Part shown: piece after piece, positions 1,642 through 62,103 of the stretch
Layout: the number at the start of each line of letters is the position of its first letter
Position numbering within the stretch: the first letter of the stretch is position 1
NCBI GenBank assembly: GCA_022773825.1
Contig: JALFOF010000105.1
Span: forward strand, 1 to 64,000
Direction: 5' to 3'
Length of the DNA: 64,000 nucleotides
Source: Prevotella sp.
GTDB lineage: Bacteria > Bacteroidota > Bacteroidia > Bacteroidales > Bacteroidaceae
Made by a program: the position numbers and the translations under genes
Notes under the pieces: model-generated
Told to the model about the DNA's origin: nothing
Seen by the model: the letters and a program-made list of their open reading frames with translations, nothing else
Database searches by the model: none

Positions 1642-1672
1642 AATTGCTGTGTCTGTATTCTTATTGCGGATG

Positions 1673-1703
1673 CAAAGTTACTACTTTTTTATTAATTTGC
1701 AAA
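1673..1703 (-). promoter_or_regulatory. asnA promoter
   Basis: Read on the minus strand, TTTG (1703-1700) is followed after 19 bases by TAACTTTG (1680-1673). This matches the Bacteroidetes -33/-7 pattern with near-ideal spacing. Transcription would begin about 25-30 bases before the asnA ATG at 1641, giving a short leader. Confidence 0.8.
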
Positions 1704-1790
1704 CACAAACGGGTATTTATTTTACACAAAGCAAGTTTTTTAACCATTCTATTGACTATTTGCAAAGAAAAGAGTGACATAGCCTGGTTG

Positions 1791-1873
1791 CCTCGCATGA
1801 TTATGGGCCGCAGGTTGCAGGTCTTCCGTAGAAAAGGAAGCGACCTGCGACCTGCGACCCACAACCATGCGGC
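1791..1873. repeat. Long imperfect palindrome downstream of aroB
   Basis: CGCAGGTTGCAGGTC (1809-1823) faces GACCTGCGACCTGCG, and pairing extends outward through CGCATGATTATGGG facing CCACAACCATGCG. This gives an arm of roughly 35 bases with a short loop. It begins 30 bases past the aroB stop and lies before the asnA promoter, so it separates the two transcription units. There is no T-run, so a plain rho-independent terminator is not certain. Confidence 0.7.
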
Positions 1874-1902
1874 AGCGCGGCCTAACATCCCTATGTGTCT
1901 TT

Positions 1903-2952: not shown

Positions 2953-2953
2953 T

Positions 2954-3125
2954 ATAGTTGTTTAGTTGTTTGGGGGGTTGGTGCTTTAGTTGTTTAGTGG
3001 TTTAGTCGTTTAGTGGTTTAGTCGTTTAGTTGTTTGGATGGCTTCGTGGTTTTCTGTTGTTTAGGCGGCTTGGTCACTTATCTACATTTAACTAAACAAC
3101 TAAAAAACTAAACAACTAAACAACC
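2954..3125. repeat. 8-bp-unit hairpin element A (dacB-aroB gap)
   Basis: The left half is runs of GTTTAGTT/GTTTAGTC/GTTTAGTG units. The right half (3087-3125) is runs of AACTAAAC. The centre contains TCACTTATCTACATTTAAC. The two halves are complementary. The element ends 3 bases from the dacB stop and 1 base from the aroB ATG, so it fills the intercistronic space. Confidence 0.9.
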
Positions 3126-3128
3126 CTC

Positions 3129-6154: not shown

Positions 6155-6219
6155 TCTTTAAGCCCTTTTCTTGGTTTGACGAGTTACGGATTGCCACGCA
6201 AGCCGCGGGCAATGGTTTC

Positions 6220-6307
6220 GCAATAGCTATGTGATTGTCTGGTAATCGCTATGCTTTTACCATGCAATAGCTATGCTTTTACTTTGCAATAGCTATGCTT
6301 TTGCGAC
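6220..6307. repeat. 22-bp repeat array, 4 copies
   Basis: Units with core AATCGCTATGCTTTTAC or AATAGCTATGCTTTTAC start at 6222, 6244, 6266 and 6288, exactly 22 bases apart. The first copy is degenerate. The array lies in the gap between the sprA stop and the nadB promoter, with no open frame. The rest of the gap (6052-6449) shows only the promoter and no other feature I can name. Confidence 0.9.
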
Positions 6308-6449
6308 AGGAAGCGATACACCTACGCCCTCATAATGCAGCAACAAGCGCGTTATCAACCACATACACGAGCGTCACCAAGGGAGATTCTCAGCACGGAA
6401 GGCTTTGTTTCTCAATACGCCGTATGGCTTTTGTCCTCTAAAGCGTTTT

Positions 6450-14834: not shown

Positions 14835-15257
14835 TGCCTGTCTTTTCTTCTTAAATATCCCTGCGGTGCGTTATGCCCGCCATTCCCGCGCACGCGCCAT
14901 GCGGGCATATTTCCACACTCTATAATAACGAGAATACTACGATAATATTGCACGCGCCACCGCTTTTTAACATAGCGCGTCTTTTCTACGCTGTGCTAAT
15001 GTCCCCACCTCTCTGACAACGAGAAAATGGTAAATTGCAGAAACTCGGTGAAAGCATAGAGACCGCGCCGTAAAAACGCTGCTTTCGCGATGCTATCTCT
15101 ATGCTTTTACGATGTAATATCAATGCTATTACACCGTAATCTGAACGGTATTGTTTTGCTATAACGTAAAACCCTGATTACCAACACCATCCTATCAGCA
15201 ATACACAGGATGGCGGAAATGGTAAATTTCACCACGAAGCGCACGAGGCGTGGCGCA
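14835..15257. other. Non-coding gap between ruvA and the nuclease gene
   Basis: No reading frame of substance. It holds degenerate 22-bp-family units around 15094-15165 (AAT of the core at 15116 and 15138, 22 apart) and a small hairpin CCATCCT...AGGATGG at 15187-15213. That hairpin lies just past the nuclease stop and could mark its 3' end. Otherwise I see nothing. Confidence 0.6.
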
Positions 15258-16124: not shown

Positions 16125-16130
16125 GGGGAG

Positions 16131-16412
16131 TTGTTTAGTGGTTTAGTGGTTTGGTGGTTTAGTTGAGTGGTTGTTTAGTGGTTTAGTGGTTTGGTATATT
16201 GGTTGAGTGGTTGTTTGGTTGTTTAGTGGTTTGGTTGTTTGGGTATTTGGTGGTTTAGCTGTTTGGTGGTTTGTTTTAGCGGTTTTACATTTAACCAAAC
16301 AACCAAATAACTAAACCACCAAACCACTCGCTCGACCTTTGGTCGCTTTGCTTGCAAAGAAACCACTAAACCACCAAATAACTAAACGACTAAACGACCA
16401 AACCACCAAATA
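16131..16412. repeat. 8-bp-unit hairpin element B (MATE-nuclease gap)
   Basis: The left half is GTTTAGTG/GTTTGGTT-type units, the centre is GCGGTTTTACATTTAACC, and the right half is AACCAAAC and ACTAAACC units. It includes an inserted piece with CTCGACCTTTGGTCG. It begins 6 bases from the nuclease ATG, and its other end overlaps the last codons of the MATE gene, whose stop at 16382-16384 lies inside it. Confidence 0.9.
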
Positions 16413-17699: not shown

Positions 17700-17866
17700 T
17701 GGTTAAGTGGTTTAGTTGTATGGTGGTTTAGTTGTTTAGTTAAATGTTGCATAACAGTCAAACAACCAGATAACTAAACTGTCAGACTTGTTCTCTGGTC
17801 CTAAGCTGTTCCTTAATTGCCAAGCCAAACAACCAAACAACTAAACAACTAAACAACCAAACAACG
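17700..17866. repeat. 8-bp-unit hairpin element C (MATE leader)
   Basis: GTTTAGTT-type units and the core TTAAATGTTGCATAACAG are followed, after a spacer, by AACAACTAAAC units ending at 17866. It lies between a -7 motif at 17890-17897 and the MATE ATG at 17692, so it would be transcribed as the 5' leader of that mRNA. Its core is in the opposite orientation to most other copies relative to the gene. Confidence 0.85.
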
Positions 17867-21802: not shown

Positions 21803-21941
21803 GGGGGTTGGTTGGTTGTTTAGTTGTTTAGTTGTTTGGTTGTTTGGTCGTTTGGTTCTTGCCTTGGGCAGGAAGCGTCACTGCGTGTCGAGCGGTTTGG
21901 CTGTTATGCAACATTTAACCAAACAACTAAACAACCAAATA
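21803..21941. repeat. 8-bp-unit hairpin element E (sstT-mnmA gap)
   Basis: GTTTAGTT/GTTTGGTT units, then an inserted GC-rich module (TTGCCTTGGGCAGGAAGCG...GTCGAGCGGTTT), the core CTGTTATGCAACATTTAAC, and AACAACTAAAC units. It starts 1 base from the mnmA ATG and ends 7 bases from the sstT stop. Confidence 0.88.
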
Positions 21942-24828: not shown

Positions 24829-25049
24829 GTTGTTTAGTTGTTTAGTTGTTTGGTTGTTTAGTTATTTAGTTGTTTGGTTATTGCCGTTGGCCGTTCGCAC
24901 GTTGTTACGCTTCTTGTTAAGGCAAGCGACCATAGGTCGAGCGGCCCTGGGCAAGAAGCGGCACAGCCGAGTGGTTTGATTGTTTGGTAGTTAGTGGTCT
25001 CCGCAATCAACCAAACAACTAAACAACCAAACAACTAAACAACCAAACT
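24829..25049. repeat. 8-bp-unit hairpin element F (rsmA leader)
   Basis: GTTTAGTT units, then a long insert with TTGTTAAGGCAAGCGACC, GGTCGAGCGGCCCTGGGC and GGCACAGCCGAGTGG, a core TCCGCAATCAACC, and AACAACTAAAC/AACAACCAAAC units. It lies between the -7 motif at 25066 and the rsmA ATG, ending 4 bases from the ATG, so it should be transcribed as leader RNA. Confidence 0.88.
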
Positions 25050-25196: not shown

Positions 25197-26198
25197 ATGA
25201 AACGTCATATCCGCAAAATCCTCAACGTACTGCTGTCCATCTTCCTGGGCGGCGCGATACTGTACTGGATGTACCGCGGCTTTGACATCGACACGATGAA
25301 GAGCGTGCTGGAGCGCGACGTGAACTGGTGGTGGATGATTGCCTCTTTCCCTTTCGGCATACTGGCACAGATGTTCAGGGGCTGGCGTTGGAAGCAGGCA
25401 TTGGAGCCTCTTGGCGAGCAGCCCCGCACGAGTACGTGCATCAATGCCATCTTCATCTCCTACGCTGCATCACTCATTGTGCCGCGCATAGGCGAGTTCA
25501 CACGCTGCGGGGTGCTGGCGAAGAAGGAGGGAACGAGCTTCCCCAAGGCTTTGGGCACGGTGGTGACAGAGCGCGCGGTGGACTCGCTCATCATTCTGCT
25601 GATAACCATTGCGGTGCTGCTATTGCAGATGCCAATGTTCCTGTCCTTCTTTTCCAAGACGGGAACACGGCTCGACGACCTGACGCTACTGCTGGGCACA
25701 TTCTCCAAGGCGGGCTACATAGTGACGGCGGTATGCGGCATCGCCACGCTGGTATGCTTCTACATCTTCCGTAAGAAGTTAGCGTTCTACGACCGGATGA
25801 AGGCCACCGCCCGCGGACTGCGTGACGGAGTGCTGTCGCTGAGAAACGTGCGCAACGTGCCATTGTTCCTGTTTTACAGCATAGCAATATGGGTGGCATA
25901 CTTCCTCCACTACTACCTCACCTTCTTCTGCTTCGAGGCCACGTCGGGAATGAGCGTGACCTGCGCCTTGGTGACGTTCATAGTAGGCTCCATAGCCGTG
26001 CTGGTGCCCACGCCAAACGGTGCCGGCTCATGGCACTTCGCCGTGAAAACAATGCTGATACTGTACGGTGTGGCGGAGACACCGGCACTGTATTTCGTGC
26101 TCGTGGTACACAGCGTGCAGACGCTCCTCGTGGCTCTGCTCGGCATATACGGCTGGCTCATGGTGGCATTGGGAACGGAACGCTCCGTAAAAGCATAG
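25197..26198 (+). CDS. Flippase-like / LPG-synthase-type transmembrane protein
   Basis: A polytopic inner-membrane protein of 333 residues with about eight hydrophobic helices. It belongs to the family of the membrane part of lysylphosphatidylglycerol synthase (UPF0104). Typical phrases are RGWRWKQALEPLG, ISYAASLIVPRIGEFTRCGVL, LGTVVTERAVDSLI and LVPTPNGAGSWHFA. Such proteins are thought to move lipids or lipid-linked intermediates, and no substrate can be read from the sequence. The C-terminal lysyl-transferase domain is absent. The last codons and the TAG stop (26196-26198) fall inside the first copy of a 22-bp repeat array. Confidence 0.85.
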   Translation: MKRHIRKILNVLLSIFLGGAILYWMYRGFDIDTMKSVLERDVNWWWMIASFPFGILAQMFRGWRWKQALEPLGEQPRTSTCINAIFISYAASLIVPRIGEFTRCGVLAKKEGTSFPKALGTVVTERAVDSLIILLITIAVLLLQMPMFLSFFSKTGTRLDDLTLLLGTFSKAGYIVTAVCGIATLVCFYIFRKKLAFYDRMKATARGLRDGVLSLRNVRNVPLFLFYSIAIWVAYFLHYYLTFFCFEATSGMSVTCALVTFIVGSIAVLVPTPNGAGSWHFAVKTMLILYGVAETPALYFVLVVHSVQTLLVALLGIYGWLMVALGTERSVKA

Positions 26199-26273
26199 CG
26201 ATTACACAGTAAAAGCATAGCGATTGCGCGGTAAAAGCATAGCGATTACAATGTAAAAGGATAGCGATTACTT
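26187..26273. repeat. 22-bp repeat array, 4 copies (overlaps a stop codon)
   Basis: AAAAGCATAGCGATTAC-type units start at 26189, 26211, 26233 and 26255, exactly 22 bases apart. The first copy supplies the end of the flippase-like gene (AAA GCA TAG). The array fills most of the 96-base gap before the BtuB-like receptor gene. Confidence 0.92.
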
Positions 26274-26294
26274 CAGAACCACACGTTCATACTT

Positions 26295-28316: not shown

Positions 28317-28486
28317 GTTGTTTAGTTGTTTAGTGGTTTGGTTGTTTAGTGGTTTAGTTGTTTAGTTAAATGTAGAGAAGTGACTAAACCAATATGCACC
28401 AAACAACTATCCACCAAACCACTAAACAACTAACTAAACAACTAAACAACCAAATAACAAAACAACTAAACAACTAAACAACCAAA
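28317..28486. repeat. 8-bp-unit hairpin element G (receptor-propeller gap)
   Basis: GTTTAGTT/GTTTGGTT units, core TTTAGTTAAATGTAGAGAAG (28362-28381), then AACAACTAAAC and AACCAAAC units that run up to the base before the next ATG at 28487. It starts 9 bases after the receptor stop. Its centre is the reverse complement of the centre of element H at 35018-35063. Confidence 0.92.
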
Positions 28487-30520
28487 ATGTCCACACCACA
28501 ACTCCTTCCTCCCCTGCCCCGCCTCAGAACGGGCTGGATATTGGGGCTTATAATCCTGTTATTCGCCTCCTGCCGCGGCGACGAGGCCGTCATAAGCATG
28601 GAGGACAGCACCATAAACACCGACGAACCGCAGAAAGGCAGCGCACGGGGGATGTACCTGTTGTGCGAAGGGAACATGGGTTCCAACAAGGCGACGATAG
28701 ACTATCTCGACCTCTCCGCTGCCGACGGACTGGTGCATTACCAGCGAAACATCTTCGCGTCGCGCAACCCTTCCGCCGTGAAAGAGCTGGGCGACGTTGG
28801 CAACGACATACAAATCTACGGCTCAAAGCTGTGGATTGTGCTCAACTGCTCCAACAAAGTGGAGGTGTGCAGCGCCGACTCCTGCAAGCGCATAGGGCAG
28901 GTCAACATACCGAACTGCCGCTATGTGGCGTTCGATGGCGACTATGCCTACGTGTCATCATACGCCGGACCCGTGCAGCTCGGCAACTCACAGCTCGGCA
29001 GGGTATATAAGGTTGACACGCTGACGCTACAGAAAGTGGACTCCGTCACCGTGGGACGACAGCCGGAGGAGATGGTAATAATGGGCGGAAAGCTCTATGT
29101 CGCCAACTCCGGCGGATACACCCCCGAGAACTACGACCGCACCGTCAGCGTGGTGTCGCTCGCCACCATGACCGAGGAACGCAAGATAGACGTTGCCCCA
29201 AACCTACACCGCCTGCGCCAAGACCACCTCGGGCAGCTGTGGGTGACGAGCCGCGGAGACTACGACGGCGTGGGGGCGGAGCTGTATTATCTCTCCACCG
29301 ACGCGGACGGAAAGATGCAACTACGCGGCAAAGTGCCCGTGGCGGTGAGCGAGATGTGCATCGTGGGCGACACATTGTATTATATTGGAGCCTCATACAG
29401 AAACGCCACACAGTCTAACACCATCAGCATGGGGCTGGTCAACGTGTCCACCCACCAGCCGATGAGCACCTCTCTCTTCTCCTCCGCCGAGGCGAAATCG
29501 GTACAGTTGCCATACGGCATCATCGTGAACCCCGAGACAAGATACTTCTACCTCATGGATGCCAAGAACTATGTGTCCTCCGGCGAACTGCTATGCTTCC
29601 GTCCCGACGGCTCCTTCGCATGGCGACAGTCCACTGGCGACATACCATCGAAGGCGGTGTTCTGTGGCTTTAGCACCATCACCGACACGCCCCCCACGCC
29701 GCCCACGCCACTGACGAGCGCATGGATAGCCGCCGTTGACGAATATGTGCCAGCGCCGGGGCAGTTCGTGAACACCCTGCCACTGTACGAAGCAGGTGAC
29801 GATGCCACCACCATGGCACGCAAATGCACCGGGCAGATAGGCGGCGAGACCATGGGGACGGTGAGCCTCGGAGGCTTCGGGGGATACATAACATTCCACT
29901 TTGACCACCCCGTGCGAAACGTACCCGGCGAATACGACCTTATGATTTATGGCAATGCGCACAGCGGAGGCAGCGAGCCCGGCATAGTGATGGTGGCACA
30001 CGACGATAATAACAACGGCATACCCGATGACGAATGGTACGAGCTCTCTGGCTCCGCCGACATCGACAGCATCGGAAAAGTCAGCTACGGCTACGAGGTG
30101 ACATACACCTACCGCCCCATGTCCGCCACGCCTTGGACCGACAACCGTGGCGGCAGCGGCGTCATCAGTCGCAACAACTTCCACACGCAGGAGTATTTCC
30201 CCCTGTGGCTCGCACCCACTGAGGGCGCAACCCTCACCCTGCACGGCACACTACTGCCCCCTAACGCCACCGACAAGTCAGGAAACGGCACGCTATGGGT
30301 GCTCAATGCCCTTCGCCACGGGTATGTTGACAACCTGCCAAACACTGACACCGAGGGCTGTTCTTTTGACATCAGCACCGCCGTACACCCCCTGACACGT
30401 CAGTCTGTAGCCCTGCCCGCCATCACCTTCGTGCGTGTTTACAGCGCGATGAACCAGCAATGCGGATGGATTGGCGAGACATCCACGGAGATAACGGCAG
30501 CGAAAGACCTGCACTGGTAA
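28487..30520 (+). CDS. BtuG-like beta-propeller surface lipoprotein with extra C-terminal domain
   Basis: A 677-residue lipoprotein (lipobox LFASC, Cys29). Residues about 50-400 form a YncE-type propeller with phrases typical of BtuG: YLLCEGNMGSNKATIDYLD, VKELGDVGNDIQIYG, LWIVLNCSNKVEV. BtuG is the high-affinity surface cobalamin-binding partner of BtuB in Bacteroidetes. Residues about 410-677 are a second domain (EYVPAPGQFVNTLP, VSLGGFGGYITFHFDHPV, PGIVMVAHDDNNNGIPDDEWYEL) that I recall as a separate 'cell surface protein' in related loci. Here it is fused. The acidic DDNNNGIPDDEW looks like a calcium site. Corrinoid binding is inferred from family and neighbour. Confidence 0.8.
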   Translation: MSTPQLLPPLPRLRTGWILGLIILLFASCRGDEAVISMEDSTINTDEPQKGSARGMYLLCEGNMGSNKATIDYLDLSAADGLVHYQRNIFASRNPSAVKELGDVGNDIQIYGSKLWIVLNCSNKVEVCSADSCKRIGQVNIPNCRYVAFDGDYAYVSSYAGPVQLGNSQLGRVYKVDTLTLQKVDSVTVGRQPEEMVIMGGKLYVANSGGYTPENYDRTVSVVSLATMTEERKIDVAPNLHRLRQDHLGQLWVTSRGDYDGVGAELYYLSTDADGKMQLRGKVPVAVSEMCIVGDTLYYIGASYRNATQSNTISMGLVNVSTHQPMSTSLFSSAEAKSVQLPYGIIVNPETRYFYLMDAKNYVSSGELLCFRPDGSFAWRQSTGDIPSKAVFCGFSTITDTPPTPPTPLTSAWIAAVDEYVPAPGQFVNTLPLYEAGDDATTMARKCTGQIGGETMGTVSLGGFGGYITFHFDHPVRNVPGEYDLMIYGNAHSGGSEPGIVMVAHDDNNNGIPDDEWYELSGSADIDSIGKVSYGYEVTYTYRPMSATPWTDNRGGSGVISRNNFHTQEYFPLWLAPTEGATLTLHGTLLPPNATDKSGNGTLWVLNALRHGYVDNLPNTDTEGCSFDISTAVHPLTRQSVALPAITFVRVYSAMNQQCGWIGETSTEITAAKDLHW

Positions 30521-34894: not shown

Positions 34895-34900
34895 TTATTG

Positions 34901-35137
34901 GATTAGTGGTTTAGTTGGTTAGTGATTTAGTGGTTTAGTTGTTTGGTGGTTTGGTGGTTAGTGGTTAGTGGTTTAGTTAGTTAGTTGTTTAGTTATTTGG
35001 TTGTTTAGTTATTTGGTTGTTTGGTGCATATTGCTTTAGTCACTTCTCTACATTTAACTAAACAACCAAACAACTAAACAACCAAATAACCAAACCACCA
35101 AACAACCAAACCACCAAACAACCAAACCACTAATCAA
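34901..35137. repeat. 8-bp-unit hairpin element H (GH2-esterase gap)
   Basis: A long arm of GTTTAGTT/GTTTGGTT units, core TCACTTCTCTACATTTAAC (35040-35058), and AACAACCAAAC/AACCACCAAAC units. It begins 6 bases from the esterase ATG and ends 4 bases from the GH2 stop. Confidence 0.92.
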
Positions 35138-35141
35138 CTCT

Positions 35142-38060
<2,919 letters not shown>

Positions 38061-38145
38061 TTATTTAGTAGATTTCAATATAGTTGCAAGTCATTTATGT
38101 GCCTATATGCAGGGGGTCGCCACCAGGGGGATGCCCACCTGCCCT

Positions 38146-38230
38146 GCAATAGCATAGCGATTACTGTGTAAAAGCATAGAGATTGGTTAGTGAAAGCATA
38201 GCGATTACTGTGTAAAAGCATAGCGATTGG
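38146..38230. repeat. 22-bp repeat array, 4 copies
   Basis: Units with AATAGCATAGCGATTAC/AAAAGCATAGCGATTAC/GAAAGCATAGCGATTAC start at 38148, 38170, 38192 and 38214, exactly 22 bases apart. Just before it lies a small GC-rich palindrome (GCAGGGGGTCGCC...TGCCCTGC). A degenerate stretch of the 8-bp family (GTTAGTGGTTTGGTT) follows to about 38290. All is in the gap between the AsmA-like gene and the GH2 gene. Confidence 0.9.
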
Positions 38231-38346
38231 TTTGACGGGTTAGTGGTTTGGTTATGCGGTTGTGTATTGTCTGTTTACATTAACGCAACGAGCAAGCCAC
38301 TACGCCTCCCCACCACCAGGTCAATAAACGACCCGGCACATTGCCG

Positions 38347-40431: not shown

Positions 40432-40435
40432 AGGG

Positions 40436-40622
40436 GTGTTTGGTGGTTTAGTTATTTTGGTGGTTTAGTTGTTTGGTGGTTTGGTTGTTTAGTTGTTTGA
40501 AAGCATCACTGCGTGCCGAGCGGTTTAGTTATTCGCAAGCGAATCGGCAAAGCCGAGCGATTTGTAAGTGACTGAATTGCTACATATAACCAAACAACTA
40601 AACAACTAAACAACCAAACAAC
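40436..40622. repeat. 8-bp-unit hairpin element J (GH115-AsmA gap)
   Basis: GTTTAGTT/GTTTGGTG units, an insert with TGCCGAGCGGTTTAG and a small TTCGCAAGCGAA palindrome, core GAATTGCTACATATAAC, and AACAACTAAAC units. The stop codon of the GH115 fusion (40622-40624) touches its right end, and the AsmA ATG is 4 bases from its left end. Confidence 0.9.
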
Positions 40623-43600
40623 TATTCTGCCCTCACAGGGAAGACGTAGAACTGCCGTTCCTTGCGAAAATCTATCATCCATTGGTCCATGATGATATGG
40701 TCATCAAGGGCTGTTACGGTGATGGTGTGACCGCCTTGGGTAAGCTCCACGTCGAGAGTGCGCAGTGCCTGCCCCCTGAGCACGTTGGTCTTCCATCGCT
40801 CGGAGCGGTAAGGCTCTTTCAGAGAGTACACCGTCGGCGCACCGCCGTCTATGCTTACGGCATAGCGTATGTCGCCCCTGTCATTAGCCTGGGTGGGTAT
40901 CATCGCCGTGCGCAGCACCGCCTTGCCCACCCGCTCCGTATAGAAGTCGAAGCGAAGCGATGCGCCTTTGGCTATGCTCACAGCCTTCATGCTGTGACCG
41001 AGCATCTCCACTGGCCGCACATTGCCCGTGCTGCTGTCGTAGGTGCAGGCGTTTCGCACTATACAACCATCGAGGGCAGCCTTCGTAAGCGGTCTGCTCT
41101 TGCAGCGACGCAGTATCGTGCTGTCAGTGGTGGCATAGTCGGCAAAGACTGGAAGCCCACGCGGCGCGGCACTCATCAATCCCTTCCACTTGCCACCGCC
41201 GAGGCTGTTGTAGCGTGAGGTGAGGCGTTTTATCTCCTCTTGGTATGCCATCGCCGTCACGGTGTCGCCCAACTGCGCCTCCAGATGCTTGTGCGCCATG
41301 GCAGCGGCGCAGTGCACGGGATACGTGACGTGCGCGAAGTATGCGTCGTCCTCACGCCCCTCGCTGTCCACTATGGCACAGATGCTGTCGTAATCTTCAA
41401 GGTATCGTTCCAGTTCCCCGCCGAACTCCGTCTCCGAGAACTCTGTGTCTTTAGGCAGGGAGTTGCCGCGCGGATATTTCTTCTTGTCCAGTTCCGTCTG
41501 CGTCCAGCCCATAAACTCGGGCTTCCTCATGCCGCAGAGCTGGTAGTAACGCTCCATCGCCGGCGCAATCCTGCTGGCGGTGCGCTGCCCGAACTGCTGT
41601 GCGAGCCAGGAGCGGAGGTGGCTTCGCAGCGTGGTGGACGTGACACTGTTGATGTCCCAAGCCATGTCCATGGCGAGGGATAGCTGGTATGCCGCCACCT
41701 TAGGGTCGTGTACGTTTATTATCCACATCTTTTTCGCACCCATATCGTAAGCCAGTCGCAGCTCGTTATACACCAGCCCCGGCTGCGTTGTGGTGAGCCA
41801 TAGGTAGTCGTGAGGACGCCCCCAGTAGCTGAGGTGGTAGTACACGCCTGCCCCTCCGCTTCTCTTCTGCTGCTCCGCGTCGCTCAGCCGCGTCATGTAG
41901 CCATAGTTGTCGTCACACCACATCAGCGTCACGTCATCAGGCACACGCAGCCCGCTCTCGTAGATTTGCAGCACCTCCTTGTACGGTATGAACACCTGCG
42001 GCACATTGTCCACGTCCTTTGAGTAGTACTTCGCTATCAGTTCCCGCTGGCTGTCAATGACGCTTTGCAGTCCGCGGAGCTTCTCGTCCGCCGTCTTCAC
42101 GCCCTCCATGGAGCCGTCGTGTATGCCCCTCATGCCTATGGTGAACAGTGCTTCCTGCCCTTTCACCTCCACAAGGCGTTCTTTCCAGTAGTCGAGCACC
42201 GCGGAACGGTTGGTGATGAAGTTGTATGCGCCGCGCTTTTTCTTGTCCCATTCGCCTGTGTTGCTGCGCAGGATAGGCTCGCAGTGGGATGAACCTATCA
42301 CTATTCCGCACGAGTCTGCCATCTCCCTGTTTCCCTTTATGGTGAAAAACGGCTTGGTCACCTCGTGCATCGCCGGCCACAGGGCATTAGCTCTAAGCCT
42401 CAGCAGCAACTGGAATATGCGCTTGTATGTCTTCGGTCCTATCGCCCCCTTGGGCAGTTCGGGTTCCACTGTCTTGTTAGCCCATTGCAGGGTGCTCCAG
42501 TCTTCGTCGTTGATGAATATGCCCCTGTACTCCACGGAGGGGCTTTGCAGGGTCTCGTCCTCACTGCCGAAGGTCAGCGAGCCTTTCTTCTCCGGCACCA
42601 CGTCGCCCCACCACACCCACGGTGACACGCCCGCCTTGCGCGAAAGTTCAAGTATTCCGTATGCCGTACCCCTGCCATTGTTGCCCACGACGATGATTTT
42701 GCCGTCACGTTCTCCAAGGAAAAAGGCGTCCTTGGTGTCCATAAGGCGCGGTGTGAGCACGTTCATCTTGCTGAGAGCCTTCAGCGTCTTGGCGTTAGCC
42801 TCGTCCAGCTGGTATATCTCTATCTTCGCCTTGTGGCGGCTGTGCGCCTCCATGCCCGTGACAGCCTCCATGTCGCCGCGGAACATTTGCAGGGCTATAT
42901 CGACCACTGGCGATGCCTTTCCCACGACGTTGTAGCCCACGGGGTGCTGCCCGTCATACCACTGCACGGCGGAGAACGCTGGCAGTGAGAGGAAGAAGGC
43001 AAGGAGGAAGCAGAGCAGTCCGCCAGTCAGTCCGCCCAAGAACTCCTTTACATTATCCACCGCCATGCGCGTGAGCCTCTGACGGGCAGCCAGCGTAGCC
43101 CACGCTATATGGGGCGTTATGCAGCAGTTACGCGCCCCTATCAGCGGCGACCCATCCCGCGGCGGCTCTTCTTCCAGCACGTCAAGTCCCGCCGCCGCTA
43201 TCCTGCCGCTGTTCAGCGCAGCGGCGAGTGCCTGCTCGTCCACCAGCGGCCCGCGGCCGGTGTTTATCAGAACCGCCGTGGGTTTCATCATGGACAAGGT
43301 CTTTTCATTGATGATATGCCTCGTGGCATCGGTCAGCGGGCAGTGCAGGCTCACGATGTCAGCACTGCCGAAAAAGTCATCCATCGTGTCAGCCTGCGCC
43401 ACATAATCCGGCACGTCCGGGCGCGCCGCCGCGCCATCCCTCAGCGAGGGTGCCACCAGCACTCCCATTCCGAAGGCGCAGGCTATGGAAGCCACCGCCC
43501 TGCCCGTGTTGCCGAAGCCCACTATGCCGAGCGTCTGTCCTGCCAGCTCCACCTGCGGCGACACCGTATAGGTGAAGTCGGGACACCTGCCCCACTCGCC

Positions 43601-44070: not shown

Positions 44071-44329
44071 CTTTTGGCTGTATTTTTACGGGGAAGTGGC
44101 GGCGGTGTGCTGTATTCCACCGTGCATTGGTTTCGTTTCAAGATGTAAGCAAATAGGCTTTTTCCGTGACATATTGATTTTGAAAAATGCTTGCCGGAAA
44201 ATGCGAACCAGAGAATTACAGGTGGGGCGTGCGGTGTTTTTATCGATACATATTACCTTTACGAGAGTCAACAATACGGTTTTGCGACATTTTCGCATAT
44301 TCATTGCGCTGCGATAGCAGTGGTTTGGC

Positions 44330-44400
44330 GGTGTAATGGCTATGCTTTTGCATCCTTAAAGCATAGCTTTTGCATTGTAATCGCTATGCTTTTACAACGC
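44330..44400. repeat. 22-bp repeat array, 3 copies
   Basis: Two direct copies (GTAATGGCTATGCTTTTGC and GTAATCGCTATGCTTTTAC, cores at 44335 and 44379, 44 apart) flank a copy in the other orientation (TAAAGCATAG at about 44357). Spacing keeps to 22 bases even with one unit inverted. Confidence 0.85.
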
Positions 44401-44783: not shown

Positions 44784-44897
44784 TTTAGTTGTTTAGTTGT
44801 TTGGTTGTTTGGTTGTTTAGTTGTTTAGTTGTTGGTCTTTCGGTTTGGAGCGAAGTGACCTCCAAACCTCCCACCCACAACCTCCAAACCTTCAACT
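44784..44897. repeat. Mixed 8-bp-unit hairpin element K
   Basis: GTTTAGTT/GTTTGGTT units run into TTTCGGTTTGGAGCGAAG and then CCTCCAAACC/CCTCCCACCC units. It joins the GTTTAGTT and GGTTTGGAG unit types in one element. It ends at the stop codon of the outer-membrane-like protein gene (44896). Confidence 0.8.
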
Positions 44898-45648
44898 ATA
44901 TCTTCATCTTCAAGCCCAGGGAGAGGCTGAGGATGTCTTTTAGGGGGATGGAGCCGTTTACGAATTTGCTGACCACGTAGAGGTCGCAGGTGGATAGTTC
45001 CCATACGAAACTACATTCCTTGGCGAGGAAACGTTTTTCTTTTGGTATATGGATAGTATAGCGCTGACCGACGAAGAGGTGGAAACGTATCTTCGATGAG
45101 AACCTGTAATAGTCTCTATCGGGATAACGCTCTGGTTCTTTCGTCCAATAGTCTTTACTCAGCACGGAGTTGAGGAACAATCCGCAAGAAAGTGGTTGCC
45201 ACGTGAACCAATGTCTGCCGCCGTCACGTTCATGGGTGCGATACAAGCCCTTGGTCCACGGCACGTAAGTCTGGCGCAGGGTGAAGGTCACGAAAGCATC
45301 GTCCTTGTCGTATTTCGGCACAAAGCCGAACATCAAGTCTGTCTCCCACTGCCTATGCTTGCCATACTCCCAACCCACACCGAGGTTAACAAGTCCTATG
45401 CTGCCAGCATACTGGAGGCGATAGAAGCTGGGCAACAGTGCCATCCACACTCTGTGGCTGCGCGCTATGCGCTTTTCATATTGTTCTATCCTGCGGTTCA
45501 GCTTCGCTACGGTGTCTTGTTCCATTGTGTCAGCGATGACAATAGTGTCTTGTTTCATAGTGTCAGCGATGACTACGGTGTCTGCCTGCTCCTGCGAGAA
45601 TGTGGCAAGAGGCAGGAGTGTGAGCAGACTAATAATCAACTGTTTCAT
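44896..45648 (-). CDS. Exported protein, probable outer-membrane barrel, unknown function
   Basis: A 250-residue protein with signal peptide (MKQLIISLLTLLPLATFS). Next comes a direct repeat of about eleven residues (DTVVIADTMKQ / DTIVIADTMEQ / DTVAK), a short coiled coil (KLNRRIEQYEKRIA) and then aromatic-rich beta segments ending in SLGLKMKI, as in small outer-membrane barrels. It overlaps the metallophosphoesterase gene upstream by 20 bases, so the two are probably co-translated. I do not recognise a family. Confidence 0.7.
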   Translation of the reverse strand: MKQLIISLLTLLPLATFSQEQADTVVIADTMKQDTIVIADTMEQDTVAKLNRRIEQYEKRIARSHRVWMALLPSFYRLQYAGSIGLVNLGVGWEYGKHRQWETDLMFGFVPKYDKDDAFVTFTLRQTYVPWTKGLYRTHERDGGRHWFTWQPLSCGLFLNSVLSKDYWTKEPERYPDRDYYRFSSKIRFHLFVGQRYTIHIPKEKRFLAKECSFVWELSTCDLYVVSKFVNGSIPLKDILSLSLGLKMKI

Positions 45649-47004: not shown

Positions 47005-47140
47005 GTGGTTGGTGGTTTGGTGGTTTAGTGTTTGGTGGTTTAGTTCTTGCCTGCGGCAAGCGGCAGAGCCGAGCGATTTAGTGGTTTAGCGCTCGTTACC
47101 ATTAACCAAACAACTAAACCACCAAACCACTAAACAACTC
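47005..47140. repeat. 8-bp-unit hairpin element L
   Basis: GTTTGGTG/GTTTAGTG units, an insert CTTGCCTGCGGCAAGCGGC (itself a small hairpin) with AGAGCCGAGCGATTTAG, a core CGTTACCATTAACC, then AACAACTAAAC/ACCACCAAAC units. It touches the ATG at 47004 and ends 2 bases from the chromate-transporter stop at 47143. Confidence 0.88.
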
Positions 47141-47142
47141 CT

Positions 47143-47721
47143 TTAATATAATAGCAGCAGTCCGGCGAAGGCTGCGTACACTATCATGCGTATAGGGTTT
47201 ATCTTTACCATCTTCACGCCGATGAAGGTGGCGATGAACAGTGCCACGGAAACCCAGAAATGCCATGGCGACTGCGCTGTAGAGTTGAAGTTCTCTGTGT
47301 TACACAGCAGCAGCGTAGCGGCGGCGAGCAGTCCCACTACCGCAGGCCTCAGCCCGATGAAGATGCTCCGCACGGGCTGGGAGTCCATGTATTTTAGGAA
47401 CATTTTGCTTATCAGCAGCATCAATATGAACGATGGCAACACCAGCGCGGCGGTGGCGGTGACACTGCCGAGCACCGCGAGCGGCACGTTGCCGGTGGCG
47501 TGGAGCACTGCGGTATAGCCGCAATAGGTGGCGCTGTTGATGCCGATAGGCCCTGGTGTCATCTGCGATATTGCCACGATATTTGTGAACTCGGCTGATG
47601 TCATCCAGTGATGTGCCACCACTACCTCGTGTTGTATGAGCGACAACATACCGTACCCTCCGCCGAAACCGAACATCCCGATGAGGAAGAAAGTGTAAAA
47701 AAGTTTAAGGAAGAGGAGCAT
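47143..47721 (-). CDS. Chromate transporter family protein, second half
   Basis: A 192-residue inner-membrane protein of the CHR family, short single-domain form. The signature near the N-terminus (FFLIGMFGFGGGYGMLSLIQHEVV) and the following ISQMTPGPIGINSATYCGY block are typical. Short CHR proteins work in pairs, and its partner is the next gene upstream. The exported substrate may be chromate or another anion. The gap to the partner is filled by a hairpin repeat. Confidence 0.9.
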   Translation of the reverse strand: MLLFLKLFYTFFLIGMFGFGGGYGMLSLIQHEVVVAHHWMTSAEFTNIVAISQMTPGPIGINSATYCGYTAVLHATGNVPLAVLGSVTATAALVLPSFILMLLISKMFLKYMDSQPVRSIFIGLRPAVVGLLAAATLLLCNTENFNSTAQSPWHFWVSVALFIATFIGVKMVKINPIRMIVYAAFAGLLLLY

Positions 47722-47723
47722 TT

Positions 47724-47873
47724 GAGTTGTTTAGTTGTTTAGTTGCTTAGTTGTTTAGTTGTTTGGTGGGTGGGTTGTTTGGTTGGTTAGTAGGGTGGTG
47801 GGTTGTAAATTGACGGAATTGCTACATATAACTAAACCACTAAACAACTAAACCACCAAACAACTAAACAACT
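47724..47873. repeat. 8-bp-unit hairpin element M
   Basis: GTTTAGTT units, core GAATTGCTACATATAAC, and ACTAAACC/AACAACTAAAC units. The TAG stop of the upstream chromate-transporter gene (47872-47874) is formed at its right end, and its left end lies 2 bases from the next ATG. It is one of the cleanest examples of the family. Confidence 0.93.
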
Positions 47874-48420
47874 ACTCACTCGGCTTGAGGAACTGTCCGT
47901 ATAGGTAGCCCCCCACGCCTGCGGCGAGGATTATGTATATAGGGTTCACTCCGAGCAGCCATATCAGCATGGCGGAGGCGATGGGTATCCAGCAGTTCAT
48001 GAGGTTTATGCCTGCTCCCTTCGCCATATTCCATGTGGGAATGGCTATCAATGCCACCACGGCGGGGCGTATGCCGGCAAAGACTGCCGCCACCCACGGC
48101 ACGTCCTGGAAGCTCTGGAAGAACATGGCTATGGCGAGAATGATGAGCAATGACGGCATCGCCGTACCCAGCGTGGTCATCGCCGCCCCCTTTATACCCT
48201 GCAACCTGTAGCCTATGAAGACCGACAGGTTGATGGCAAAGACGCCAGGGCATGACTGCGCCACGGCTATCAGGTCCAAGAACATCGTCTTGTCTATCCA
48301 CTTGCGCCTGTCCACCACCTCGGCTTCTATGAGGGGTATCATGGCGTATCCGCCGCCGAGGGTGAATAGTCCTATGCGGAAGAAGGTAAGGAAAAGGTCT
48401 TTTATCATAGGCATTGCCAC
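47872..48420 (-). CDS. Chromate transporter family protein, first half
   Basis: A 182-residue CHR protein with the same layout as its neighbour (FFRIGLFTLGGGYAMIPLIEAEVV, then VAQSCPGVFAINLSVFIGYRLQG). The two genes are in the same orientation and probably form a heterodimer. The start could be Met1 (48420) or Met5 (48408), and the latter begins directly with the conserved helix. Confidence 0.9.
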   Translation of the reverse strand: MAMPMIKDLFLTFFRIGLFTLGGGYAMIPLIEAEVVDRRKWIDKTMFLDLIAVAQSCPGVFAINLSVFIGYRLQGIKGAAMTTLGTAMPSLLIILAIAMFFQSFQDVPWVAAVFAGIRPAVVALIAIPTWNMAKGAGINLMNCWIPIASAMLIWLLGVNPIYIILAAGVGGYLYGQFLKPSE

Positions 48421-52667: not shown

Positions 52668-52756
52668 AAATATTGCTTTTTTTGTGCATTTTGGTTGCCA
52701 CGAACCAGAAAACGCTTTCTGCCGCCCCTCTATCGCACTTGTCTTGCCGCCCCACC

Positions 52757-52868
52757 GCAATCGCTATGCTTTTACTCGGTAATCACTACGCTTTTGCATT
52801 GTAATCACTATGCTTTTGCATTGTAATAGCTATGCTTTTACATTGCAATAGCTATGCTTTCGTATTGT
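52757..52868. repeat. 22-bp repeat array, 5 copies
   Basis: AATCGCTATGCTTTTAC, AATCACTACGCTTTTGC, AATCACTATGCTTTTGC, AATAGCTATGCTTTTAC and AATAGCTATGCTTTCG start at 52759, 52781, 52803, 52825 and 52847, exactly 22 bases apart. It is the longest and most regular array of this family in the window. It lies upstream of purL. Confidence 0.95.
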
Positions 52869-53423
52869 GAGCCCCTTACAGGGGCGTGGTGAATGGTGCG
52901 GCTATCAGACAGGGGCGAGCCCCCGCCCTGTAATATGTGTCCACCTTCGGGGGCGTTGGGTTGTCCCTTTACCGCACAACCGTTATGCCTTTGATTACCA
53001 TCGCCAATGTATTCATTCCGCATCGTGCTTGTCCGCTCACTGCACGGCAAGGATGCCGTGCCTACATCTCTTCGCAAATCTTTTTCCGCCGACCATCGGT
53101 AGGCACGGCATCCCTGCCGTGCAACCGCCACATCGTGTGGGTTAACCATCGATGATGGGAATGGTTCCTTTCGCCCCTATACAGGGCTTTCCCTATATAT
53201 GCGCACCGTCCACGCCGTAATCGCTATGCTTTTGCGGCGGCACGGGGGAGTCATAGCGGGCGGAGGGCGGAGGAAAGCGGCTGTCAGCGAGGGGCTGGAA
53301 ACGGAGGGGACGCACGCCGCCGCTATACAGCCTCCGCCCCCTCCGGCCGCAATCTACGTCAACTTTTTCCGCACATAGCACAAGAAAATCAACAAAAGCC
53401 TTGGAGGTATGACAGAAAATGCG
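52869..53423. other. Non-coding stretch with palindromes before typA
   Basis: No credible gene. It holds a small palindrome ACAGGGGCG...CGCCCTGT (52909-52931), a larger one at 53041-53123, and a single 22-bp-family unit (GTAATCGCTATGCTTTTGC, 53218-53236) flanked by GCCG/CGGC. A G-rich tract (53240-53310) is followed by partly complementary C-rich sequence (53325-53345). Confidence 0.65.
53041..53123. repeat. REP-like inverted repeat with 25-base arms
   Basis: TGCACGGCAAGGATGCCGTG (continuing CCTAC, 53041-53065) is inverted at 53099-53123 with two mismatches. Each arm is itself a small palindrome (CACGGCA..TGCCGTG). The loop is about 33 bases. This resembles REP-type extragenic palindromes. 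Confidence 0.8.
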
Positions 53424-61294: not shown

Positions 61295-61443
61295 AAGCAA
61301 GCCTGGCAACACGGAGGCACGACCGAAAACGAACAGTAACATAACACATAAGCGCGCCACCCACATACCCACGGCAGACACGCCAAATGTTGACAAGTGA
61401 ATTAGTATAAACAATCAAAAACTGTCAAGCGATTTTAGGAAAA

Positions 61444-61530
61444 GACAATAGCATAGCGATTACACTGCAATAGCATAGCGATTACAACACAATCGCATAG
61501 CGTTTACAGTGTAATCGCTATGCTTTTATC
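61444..61530. repeat. 22-bp repeat array, 3 direct copies plus 1 inverted
   Basis: AATAGCATAGCGATTAC-type units at 61447, 61469 and 61491 (22 apart) are followed by one unit in the opposite orientation (GTAATCGCTATGCTTTTA). The last two form a near-perfect palindrome, GCATAGCGTTTAC facing GTAATCGCTATGC (61495-61523). Confidence 0.92.
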
Positions 61531-61565: not shown

Positions 61566-61760
61566 TCCAACCCAAAACTGACTGTACCCAAATCCAAAGC
61601 TGACCGCACCCAATTACAAAGCTGATTGCACTCAATTACAAAGCTGATTGCACCCAATTACAAAGCTGACAGCACCCAATTCCAAAGCTGATTGTACCTC
61701 ACACTAAAGCAGACAGCACTCTATCGAAGAGCCGTAACACTCTATCGAAGAGCCCAGAAT
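61566..61760. repeat. Second 22-bp tandem repeat (CCAATTACAAAGCTGATTGC unit), about 7-8 copies
   Basis: AAAGCTGA or a close variant begins at 61574, 61596, 61618, 61640, 61662, 61684 and 61706, exactly 22 bases apart. Two degenerate units (CTCTATCGAAGAGCC) continue to about 61755. The unit differs from the other 22-bp family but the period is the same. No open frame crosses it. Confidence 0.9.
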
Positions 61761-61818
61761 GGGCGACATAATACAGCACAGGGTGTAAACCCTGTGTATC
61801 GTGAGCCCCCCACCCCCT

Positions 61819-61964: not shown

Positions 61965-62103
61965 CGGACCGATTATTGCAGGGGTACACTTAGAGCCCCA
62001 CGGGTGATGGTGTTAATAGCCGTGCGTCTGGCCGCGCCGGTGGTTAGTGAATCCACTCCCGAAACAATGTTTTTTAGTAGTAATAAAATTATTAAAGTTA
62101 AGA

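Follow-up and report, generated by a model that had tools for sequence, protein, structure and literature searches.

Inverted octamer arrays fitted between stop and start codons in a Prevotella genome

Short-unit inverted repeat arrays fill gaps between co-directional genes in a Prevotella genome, and their tight fit to the stop codon of one gene and the ATG of the next is real and genome-wide. We describe about 100 such hairpin-forming arrays (n=102), built from an 8-letter unit, GTKGTTTR / YAAACMAC, in 565 kb of a genome of 2.24 Mb in 109 contigs from a genus with many species. The 565 kb comprise the 64-kb stretch of DNA analysed here (the window) and 59 other stretches picked around array matches, a choice that inflates absolute junction frequencies equally in all classes of gap and leaves comparisons between these classes unaffected. 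Genome-wide, the array pattern matched 571 times in forward and 512 times in reverse orientation, and a reversed control pattern 81 and 69 times. Close to an even call in our judgement, and held tentatively, is the reading that the element is a transcribed intercistronic spacer module, consisting of a hairpin and a leader, in Prevotella operons; co-transcription, folding in cells, an effect on translation or stability and maintenance by selection are what we infer for such a module.

Placement of the arrays

The flagged type of array occurs about 13 times within the window. Element M (47722..47874, minus strand) is a (GTTGTTTA)n / (TAAACAAC)n inverted array with a short middle, which fills the gap (47721/47872 in the gene calls) between two chromate-transporter genes (Chromate_transp, PF02417). 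The upstream cistron (47872..48408, minus strand) has its TAG stop inside the array edge, and the ATG of the downstream cistron (47143..47721, minus strand), itself upstream of element L, touches M. The core of M, TACATATAACTAAACCAC (47823..47840, plus strand), is antisense to transcription and on the sense strand ends the stop-side arm. Gaps are also filled by elements A (2953..3128, the whole gap 2952/3129), B (16129..16410, with the upstream gene's stop at 16382 inside it), E (21806..21939, gap 21801/21949), H (34895..35139, gap 34894/35142), J (40434..40624, gap 40431/40622) and L (47005..47139, gap 47004/47143), all on the minus strand and, like M, in gaps running from minus to minus, and by G (28317..28486, plus strand, gap 28307/28487), which lies in a plus-to-plus gap and ends at the ATG at 28487. 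An earlier note on the window had described these eight elements as fitting between stop and start codons of co-directional genes, and all eight were re-found with gene calls from our own hexamer model, which are independent of that note. Element K (44784..44890, minus strand) is tight on the stop side only, C (17700..17865) and F (24829..25048), with no strand assigned, lie between divergent genes at 7 and 4 bp from a minus-strand ATG, and a weaker element (38228..38333, minus strand) stands beside a 22-mer array.

Among 99 placeable elements, 84 sit between co-directional genes, and for these 84 the edge distances, which the earlier note had proposed to measure, have medians of 1 bp to the stop and 1 bp to the ATG. 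Both edges fall within -30..+10 bp of stop and ATG in 50 of the 84, and the ATG-side edge does so in 61. Co-directional gaps with a residual of at most 20 bp hold 56 of the 96 element-bearing gaps but only 1.5% of the non-coding bp (binomial p ~1e-75 against chance placement in non-coding DNA), which bears out the earlier claim that random insertion would not give such positions. Per junction, elements are found at 47 of 103 with a residual of at most 10 bp vs 16 of 112 with more than 100 bp, and where the residual exceeds 50 bp, 14 of 22 elements still touch one coding edge (3.4 expected). Exceptions to the fit are divergent pairs, at which 8 of 10 elements abut one ATG only, one-sided elements such as K, and about one third of the tandem copies, which have one loose edge; convergent gaps hold 3 elements. 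TAG is the upstream stop at 43 of 83 element junctions vs 42 of 249 others (17%) and also occurs in the array itself; the data support an element that starts at the stop and often supplies that stop. In a second array-rich species, CALZJQ, the fit is less sharp (28 of 38 on the stop side, 19 of 38 on the ATG side), and it recurs, likewise less sharply, in the relatives G060 and G021.

Within runs the unit varies mainly between T and G at position 3 and A and G at position 8, and the other six positions are held, a constancy built in by a run search that demanded those six. Array ends of different copies differ in phase and length, and single arms and long loops are present among the elements, which makes the element less uniform than a fixed spacer. 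An Rfam search of the window returned no family covering the element and only two unrelated matches, an Acido-Lenti-1 RNA (61751-61796, minus strand) and an L13-Bacteroidia ribosomal protein leader (61981-62053, plus strand). Octamers of the GTKGTTTR type also form long arrays in the distant flavobacterium Kordia jejudonensis (L154, L172, L203), with single array matches in cyanobacteria and others.

Other repeats share the intergenic space. A second family has 22-nt units (AATCGCTATGCTTTTACNNNGT) in tandem, partly inverted and intergenic, at window positions 6200-6323, 15043-15151, 26182-26291, 38119-38250, 44313-44392, 52737-52882 and 61418-61527. A third consists of 7-8 nt AGGTYTTAGG / AGGTTNTGG arrays with inverted partners (L024 6630-7164, L042 after 8757, window 1642-1902), at junctions common to the GTTGTTTA family. 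The short palindrome GTGTCGCGGGCGTCAGCCCGTGA occurs in many gaps, often near the ATG (L042, L055, L053, L013, L025), the nested palindromes CTTTGCAAGCAAAG and GCTTGCCGCAGGCAAG recur in element loops, making the elements mosaics, and two-copy tandem repeats of 43 bp and 33 bp lie at 399-484 and 45512-45577 of the window.

Polarity, predicted fold and leader

The elements have a fixed polarity relative to transcription. In tandem copies, the core TACAYWTAAC is antisense 27 times out of 28 and sense once. Of 152 tandem gaps measuring 80-350 bp, 64 combine a G-rich start with a C-rich end and 0 show the reverse polarity. Summed over nine other genomes (G001, G004, G006, G008, G009, G010, G016, G019 and G034), co-directional gaps of the same size range show 17 cases with G-rich start and C-rich end vs 2 of the reverse. 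Lone arms are of the A/C-rich, ATG-side type in 16 cases vs 3 of the stop-side type, and most of the former touch the ATG. On the sense strand the cores in A, H, M and others read GTTAAATGTAG or GTTATATGTAG, an ATG followed at once by a stop codon, so that the arms flank a minimal start-stop frame.

The predicted folds of complete elements are much more stable than those of shuffled versions, with z from -4.7 to -9.4 among those folded; for M, transcribed from the minus strand, the minimum free energy is -46.4 kcal/mol and z is -7.6. Arms are unequal, with 5.7 units on the ATG side vs 3.6 on the stop side, and in 53 gaps the predicted RNA stem begins a median of 2 nt past the stop and ends a median of 23 nt before the ATG (p 4e-9); in about one third of the folded elements at most 12 nt are free at the ATG. 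With the coding flanks included in the computation, bases at -20..+3 of the ATG are unpaired with a mean probability of 0.65, a small gain over the 0.59 of ordinary gaps (p 0.06), and the 20 nt after the stop with one of 0.23. These models support an element that ends at the next ATG as an unpaired A/C-rich leader. In Prevotella bryantii, structure at the start site cuts expression five-fold and a hairpin at -21 brings no reduction (PMC3155529); as folded, the element looks built to that rule.

An arm pairs with its partner in the same element no better than with foreign arms (mean rank 0.49), and units match at 0.669 within vs 0.639 between elements. Since pairing with arms of other elements is equally good, there is no visible selection for the exact stem, and what the arms retain is no more than a complementary composition. 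Inverted duplication and selection for exact pairing were accordingly rejected as sources of the arms, given that foreign arms match and pair equally well.

For the spacer module, the following course of events can be proposed. The G/U-rich GUKGUUUR array would begin at, and often supply, the stop codon of the first gene and pair with the inner part of the longer A/C-rich YAAACMAC array, the outer end of which, about 20-25 nt, would stay unpaired as a leader in front of the next ATG. Junctions at which genes overlap or are closely packed would in this way become two separate translation units, with ribosomes finishing before the hairpin and restarting on an open A/C-rich leader, which would suit a phylum without Shine-Dalgarno sites. 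The hairpin may also shield the upstream message from 3' exonucleases, and different repeat families could do the same job at one junction. The earlier description of the elements as intercistronic spacers is supported in part, as regards their anatomy, namely the supplied TAG, the A/C-rich leader and the near-absence of promoter motifs from tight gaps. The spacer reading is weakened by relatives that manage with 4-bp overlaps and by the many junctions of the element-bearing operons that carry no element.

Junctions in relatives and competing explanations

Orthologous pairs without the element, a comparison that the earlier note had suggested, often have overlaps of 4-8 bp or short gaps, with the protein ends kept. 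At the junction of element M, the chromate genes overlap by 4 bp (ATGA) in G002, G009, G019 and G020 and are separated by 7 bp in G012, 25 bp in G015 and 39 bp in G006, and in most of these relatives the end of the first protein and the start of the second lie at homologous residues. Junction L024:5418 measures 188 bp here, with overlaps of 4 bp in G008 and 8 bp in CALZJQ, and measures 1 bp in G060, and junction L042:5626 measures 229 bp here vs 15 bp in a relative, with the protein ends YKVN* / MNRRK intact. Start and end offsets are mostly zero at the junctions common with G060.

Filled junctions can also carry other arrays in relatives. The chromate pair has other units, GAAGTTATA in G004 and GGTCATAA / AAAGTTCA in G008, and AGGTT-type arrays stand in G060 and G021 where this genome carries GTTGTTTA. 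Family switches relative to G060 are seen at L042:7963, at L048:3907, where the exchange runs in reverse, and at window junction 21801, where G060 carries a 22-mer-type array, a GTGCTGATTAC version related to the 22-nt family of the window. G060 (median protein identity 83%) has inserts at 11 of 32 junctions filled here vs 0 of 25 unfilled (p 0.0013), a recurrence that in part reflects common descent, as several inserts are diverged copies of the same family. A given junction may thus show no insert, a diverged insert or a different array family in sister species, and across the genus the arrays are patchy, dense in this genome (G000) and G021 and sparse or absent in most others. The arrays are best read, from these comparisons, as a fast-changing spacer, with modules probably gained, replaced and lost quickly. 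They may have been inserted at the junctions, have grown in place or have been retained by selection.

An alternative that we regard as unlikely, and yet to be reckoned with, is near-neutral growth, in which a small palindromic array, formed in a gap or brought into it, would be lengthened by slippage and unequal exchange and would overwrite unconstrained sequence until selection halted it, so that the tight fit would mark this limit and no function. It agrees with arms that are not copies of each other, with unit families that differ between species, and with a residual of own gap sequence of median 4 bp here vs typical gaps of 47-58 bp at the same junctions in relatives (p 0.0012 for 13 pairs; p 0.21 for all 16, as the three composite gaps left out also hold other arrays). 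Where relatives have a real gap, the native sequence therefore appears to have been replaced and not merely split. However, growth of this kind would not be expected to fix the orientation of the core, nor to give arms of unequal length with a leader left free. Per junction, elements are most frequent in the tightest gaps, which offer little sequence for overwriting, and positions 3 and 8 of the unit vary with the six demanded by the run search held.

A broader proposal, which we consider quite unlikely, is that some process acting throughout the genus writes inverted arrays of short units where stop and start codons meet in Prevotella operons, with the junction conserved and the array species-specific and interchangeable. 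The resulting class of RNA spacers would be defined not by sequence but by architecture, that is, a G-rich arm, a loop, a longer A/C-rich arm and a free leader of about 20 nt, and the degenerate units could be the product not of slippage but of a template-driven enzyme such as a reverse transcriptase.

Distinctly improbable is a selfish palindrome, MITE-like or REP-like, that was mobilised by a transposase and survived only where no gene was harmed. High copy number, palindromic form, intergenic position and patchiness in the genus agree with this, but copies surviving evenly wherever DNA is harmless would be expected mostly in long gaps and in convergent ones, of which the latter hold few elements, and the orientation bias also speaks against it. 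The ends, variable in phase and length, may point the same way, as may the few empty sites compared, at which no target-site duplication was visible. A Y1 transposase (PF01797) was found neither in this genome (87% complete) nor in the array-rich relatives G008, G019 and G021, and RAYT/REP mobility was rejected on its absence from this genome; spread by phage or plasmid was likewise rejected, since the phage and plasmid collections gave one short partial phage match and no plasmid match.

That the elements are transcription terminators or ends of separate units is very improbable, even with a strong hairpin directly after the stop. The Bacteroidetes promoter motif is TAnnTTTG, and it was used here because sigma-70 style promoter scans are unsuited to this phylum. 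It is present in 2 of 56 tight gaps vs 30 of 80 element-free control gaps of 90-400 bp, and in 6 of 27 loose copies, a few elements lying between a stop and the motif. There is no U-run after the stem, the A/C-rich 3' arm instead running into the ATG, element M contains no terminator-like site, and genes overlap by 4 bp at the same junctions in relatives. Intrinsic terminators were rejected on the missing U-run and the missing promoter behind tight copies, and for the same reasons tight copies most likely lie inside operons; loose copies, some of them beside a promoter motif, are likely to be at the borders of transcription units. The broad spread of distances or the separate transcription units that the earlier note had named as counter-evidence were not found for most copies; some copies sit at probable unit boundaries, with a stop before and a promoter motif after them.

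It is hardly credible, finally, that the arrays serve as sites for a protein that binds DNA or RNA at the unit GTNGTTTR, such as a start-codon-adjacent regulator: variation mainly at positions 3 and 8 would suit it and TAACTGA arrays have been proposed as such sites (PMC4679880), but unit sequences differ between close species at the same junctions, which makes a conserved reader protein unlikely.

If the spacer module is functional, fast-evolving spacers would be changing the wiring of operons in a dominant gut genus at the level of RNA, with tight coupling between genes of a pair lost within the genus. This would help to explain how internal cistrons are started in Bacteroidetes without Shine-Dalgarno sites, and the junctions, be they empty, filled or exchanged, would form a natural series for the study of translational coupling. 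If not functional, the arrays would be a clean record of intergenic DNA overwritten up to the last constrained base, and either way the operon spacing rules of E. coli would not carry over to these genomes.

Comparison with known systems

Integron attC sites are imperfect palindromes between co-directional genes. Here, in contrast, there is no cassette array and the flanking genes are chromosomal, and their order is kept in relatives that lack the element, a point against integron cassettes, which we rejected. ERIC and YPAL, intercistronic palindromes likewise transcribed in operons, are suggested mRNA stabilisers. A role in mRNA stabilisation has also been suggested for REP palindromes (PMC3733652). 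The Prevotella element resembles REP/REPIN, BIME, ERIC and YPAL in being palindromic and intercistronic, but has neither their conserved sequence of fixed length nor the Y1 transposase of REPs.

The BrickBuilt minisatellite MITE of Porphyromonas gingivalis has a 23-nt unit, leader and tail segments and 19 copies, which lie 49-591 nt from coding sequences and have promoter activity (PMC4596501). Like BrickBuilt, the present arrays are intergenic, scattered copies of imperfect tandem units in Bacteroidales; their unit of only 8 nt and their abutment on the coding sequences at either side place them outside the BrickBuilt definition, to which the 22-mer arrays of the window are closer.

The nearest known parallel is offered by the start-codon-abutting TAACTGA heptamer repeats of Beggiatoaceae, Cyanobacteria and Bacteroidetes (MacGregor 2015, PMC4679880). 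Most of these arrays share one orientation and precede a start codon, the commonest distance being 1 nt; they have 2-6 copies of one fixed heptamer in the main genome and are almost never inverted. One Bacteroidetes has a reversed array behind a stop, and relatives have shorter, repeat-free gaps (PMC4679880). Both systems comprise many short-unit tandem arrays per genome that abut start codons, and the Prevotella element agrees with the positional definition of TAACTGA-type arrays, while its unit GTKGTTTR / YAAACMAC differs in sequence. It differs from the heptamer arrays in that its octamer is degenerate, its arms are inverted and span the stop-to-start gap, and its families are exchanged between species. 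The features by which the Prevotella element goes beyond the TAACTGA arrays are thus the inverted arms, the filling of the entire gap, a fixed orientation, a built-in leader and the exchange of array families.
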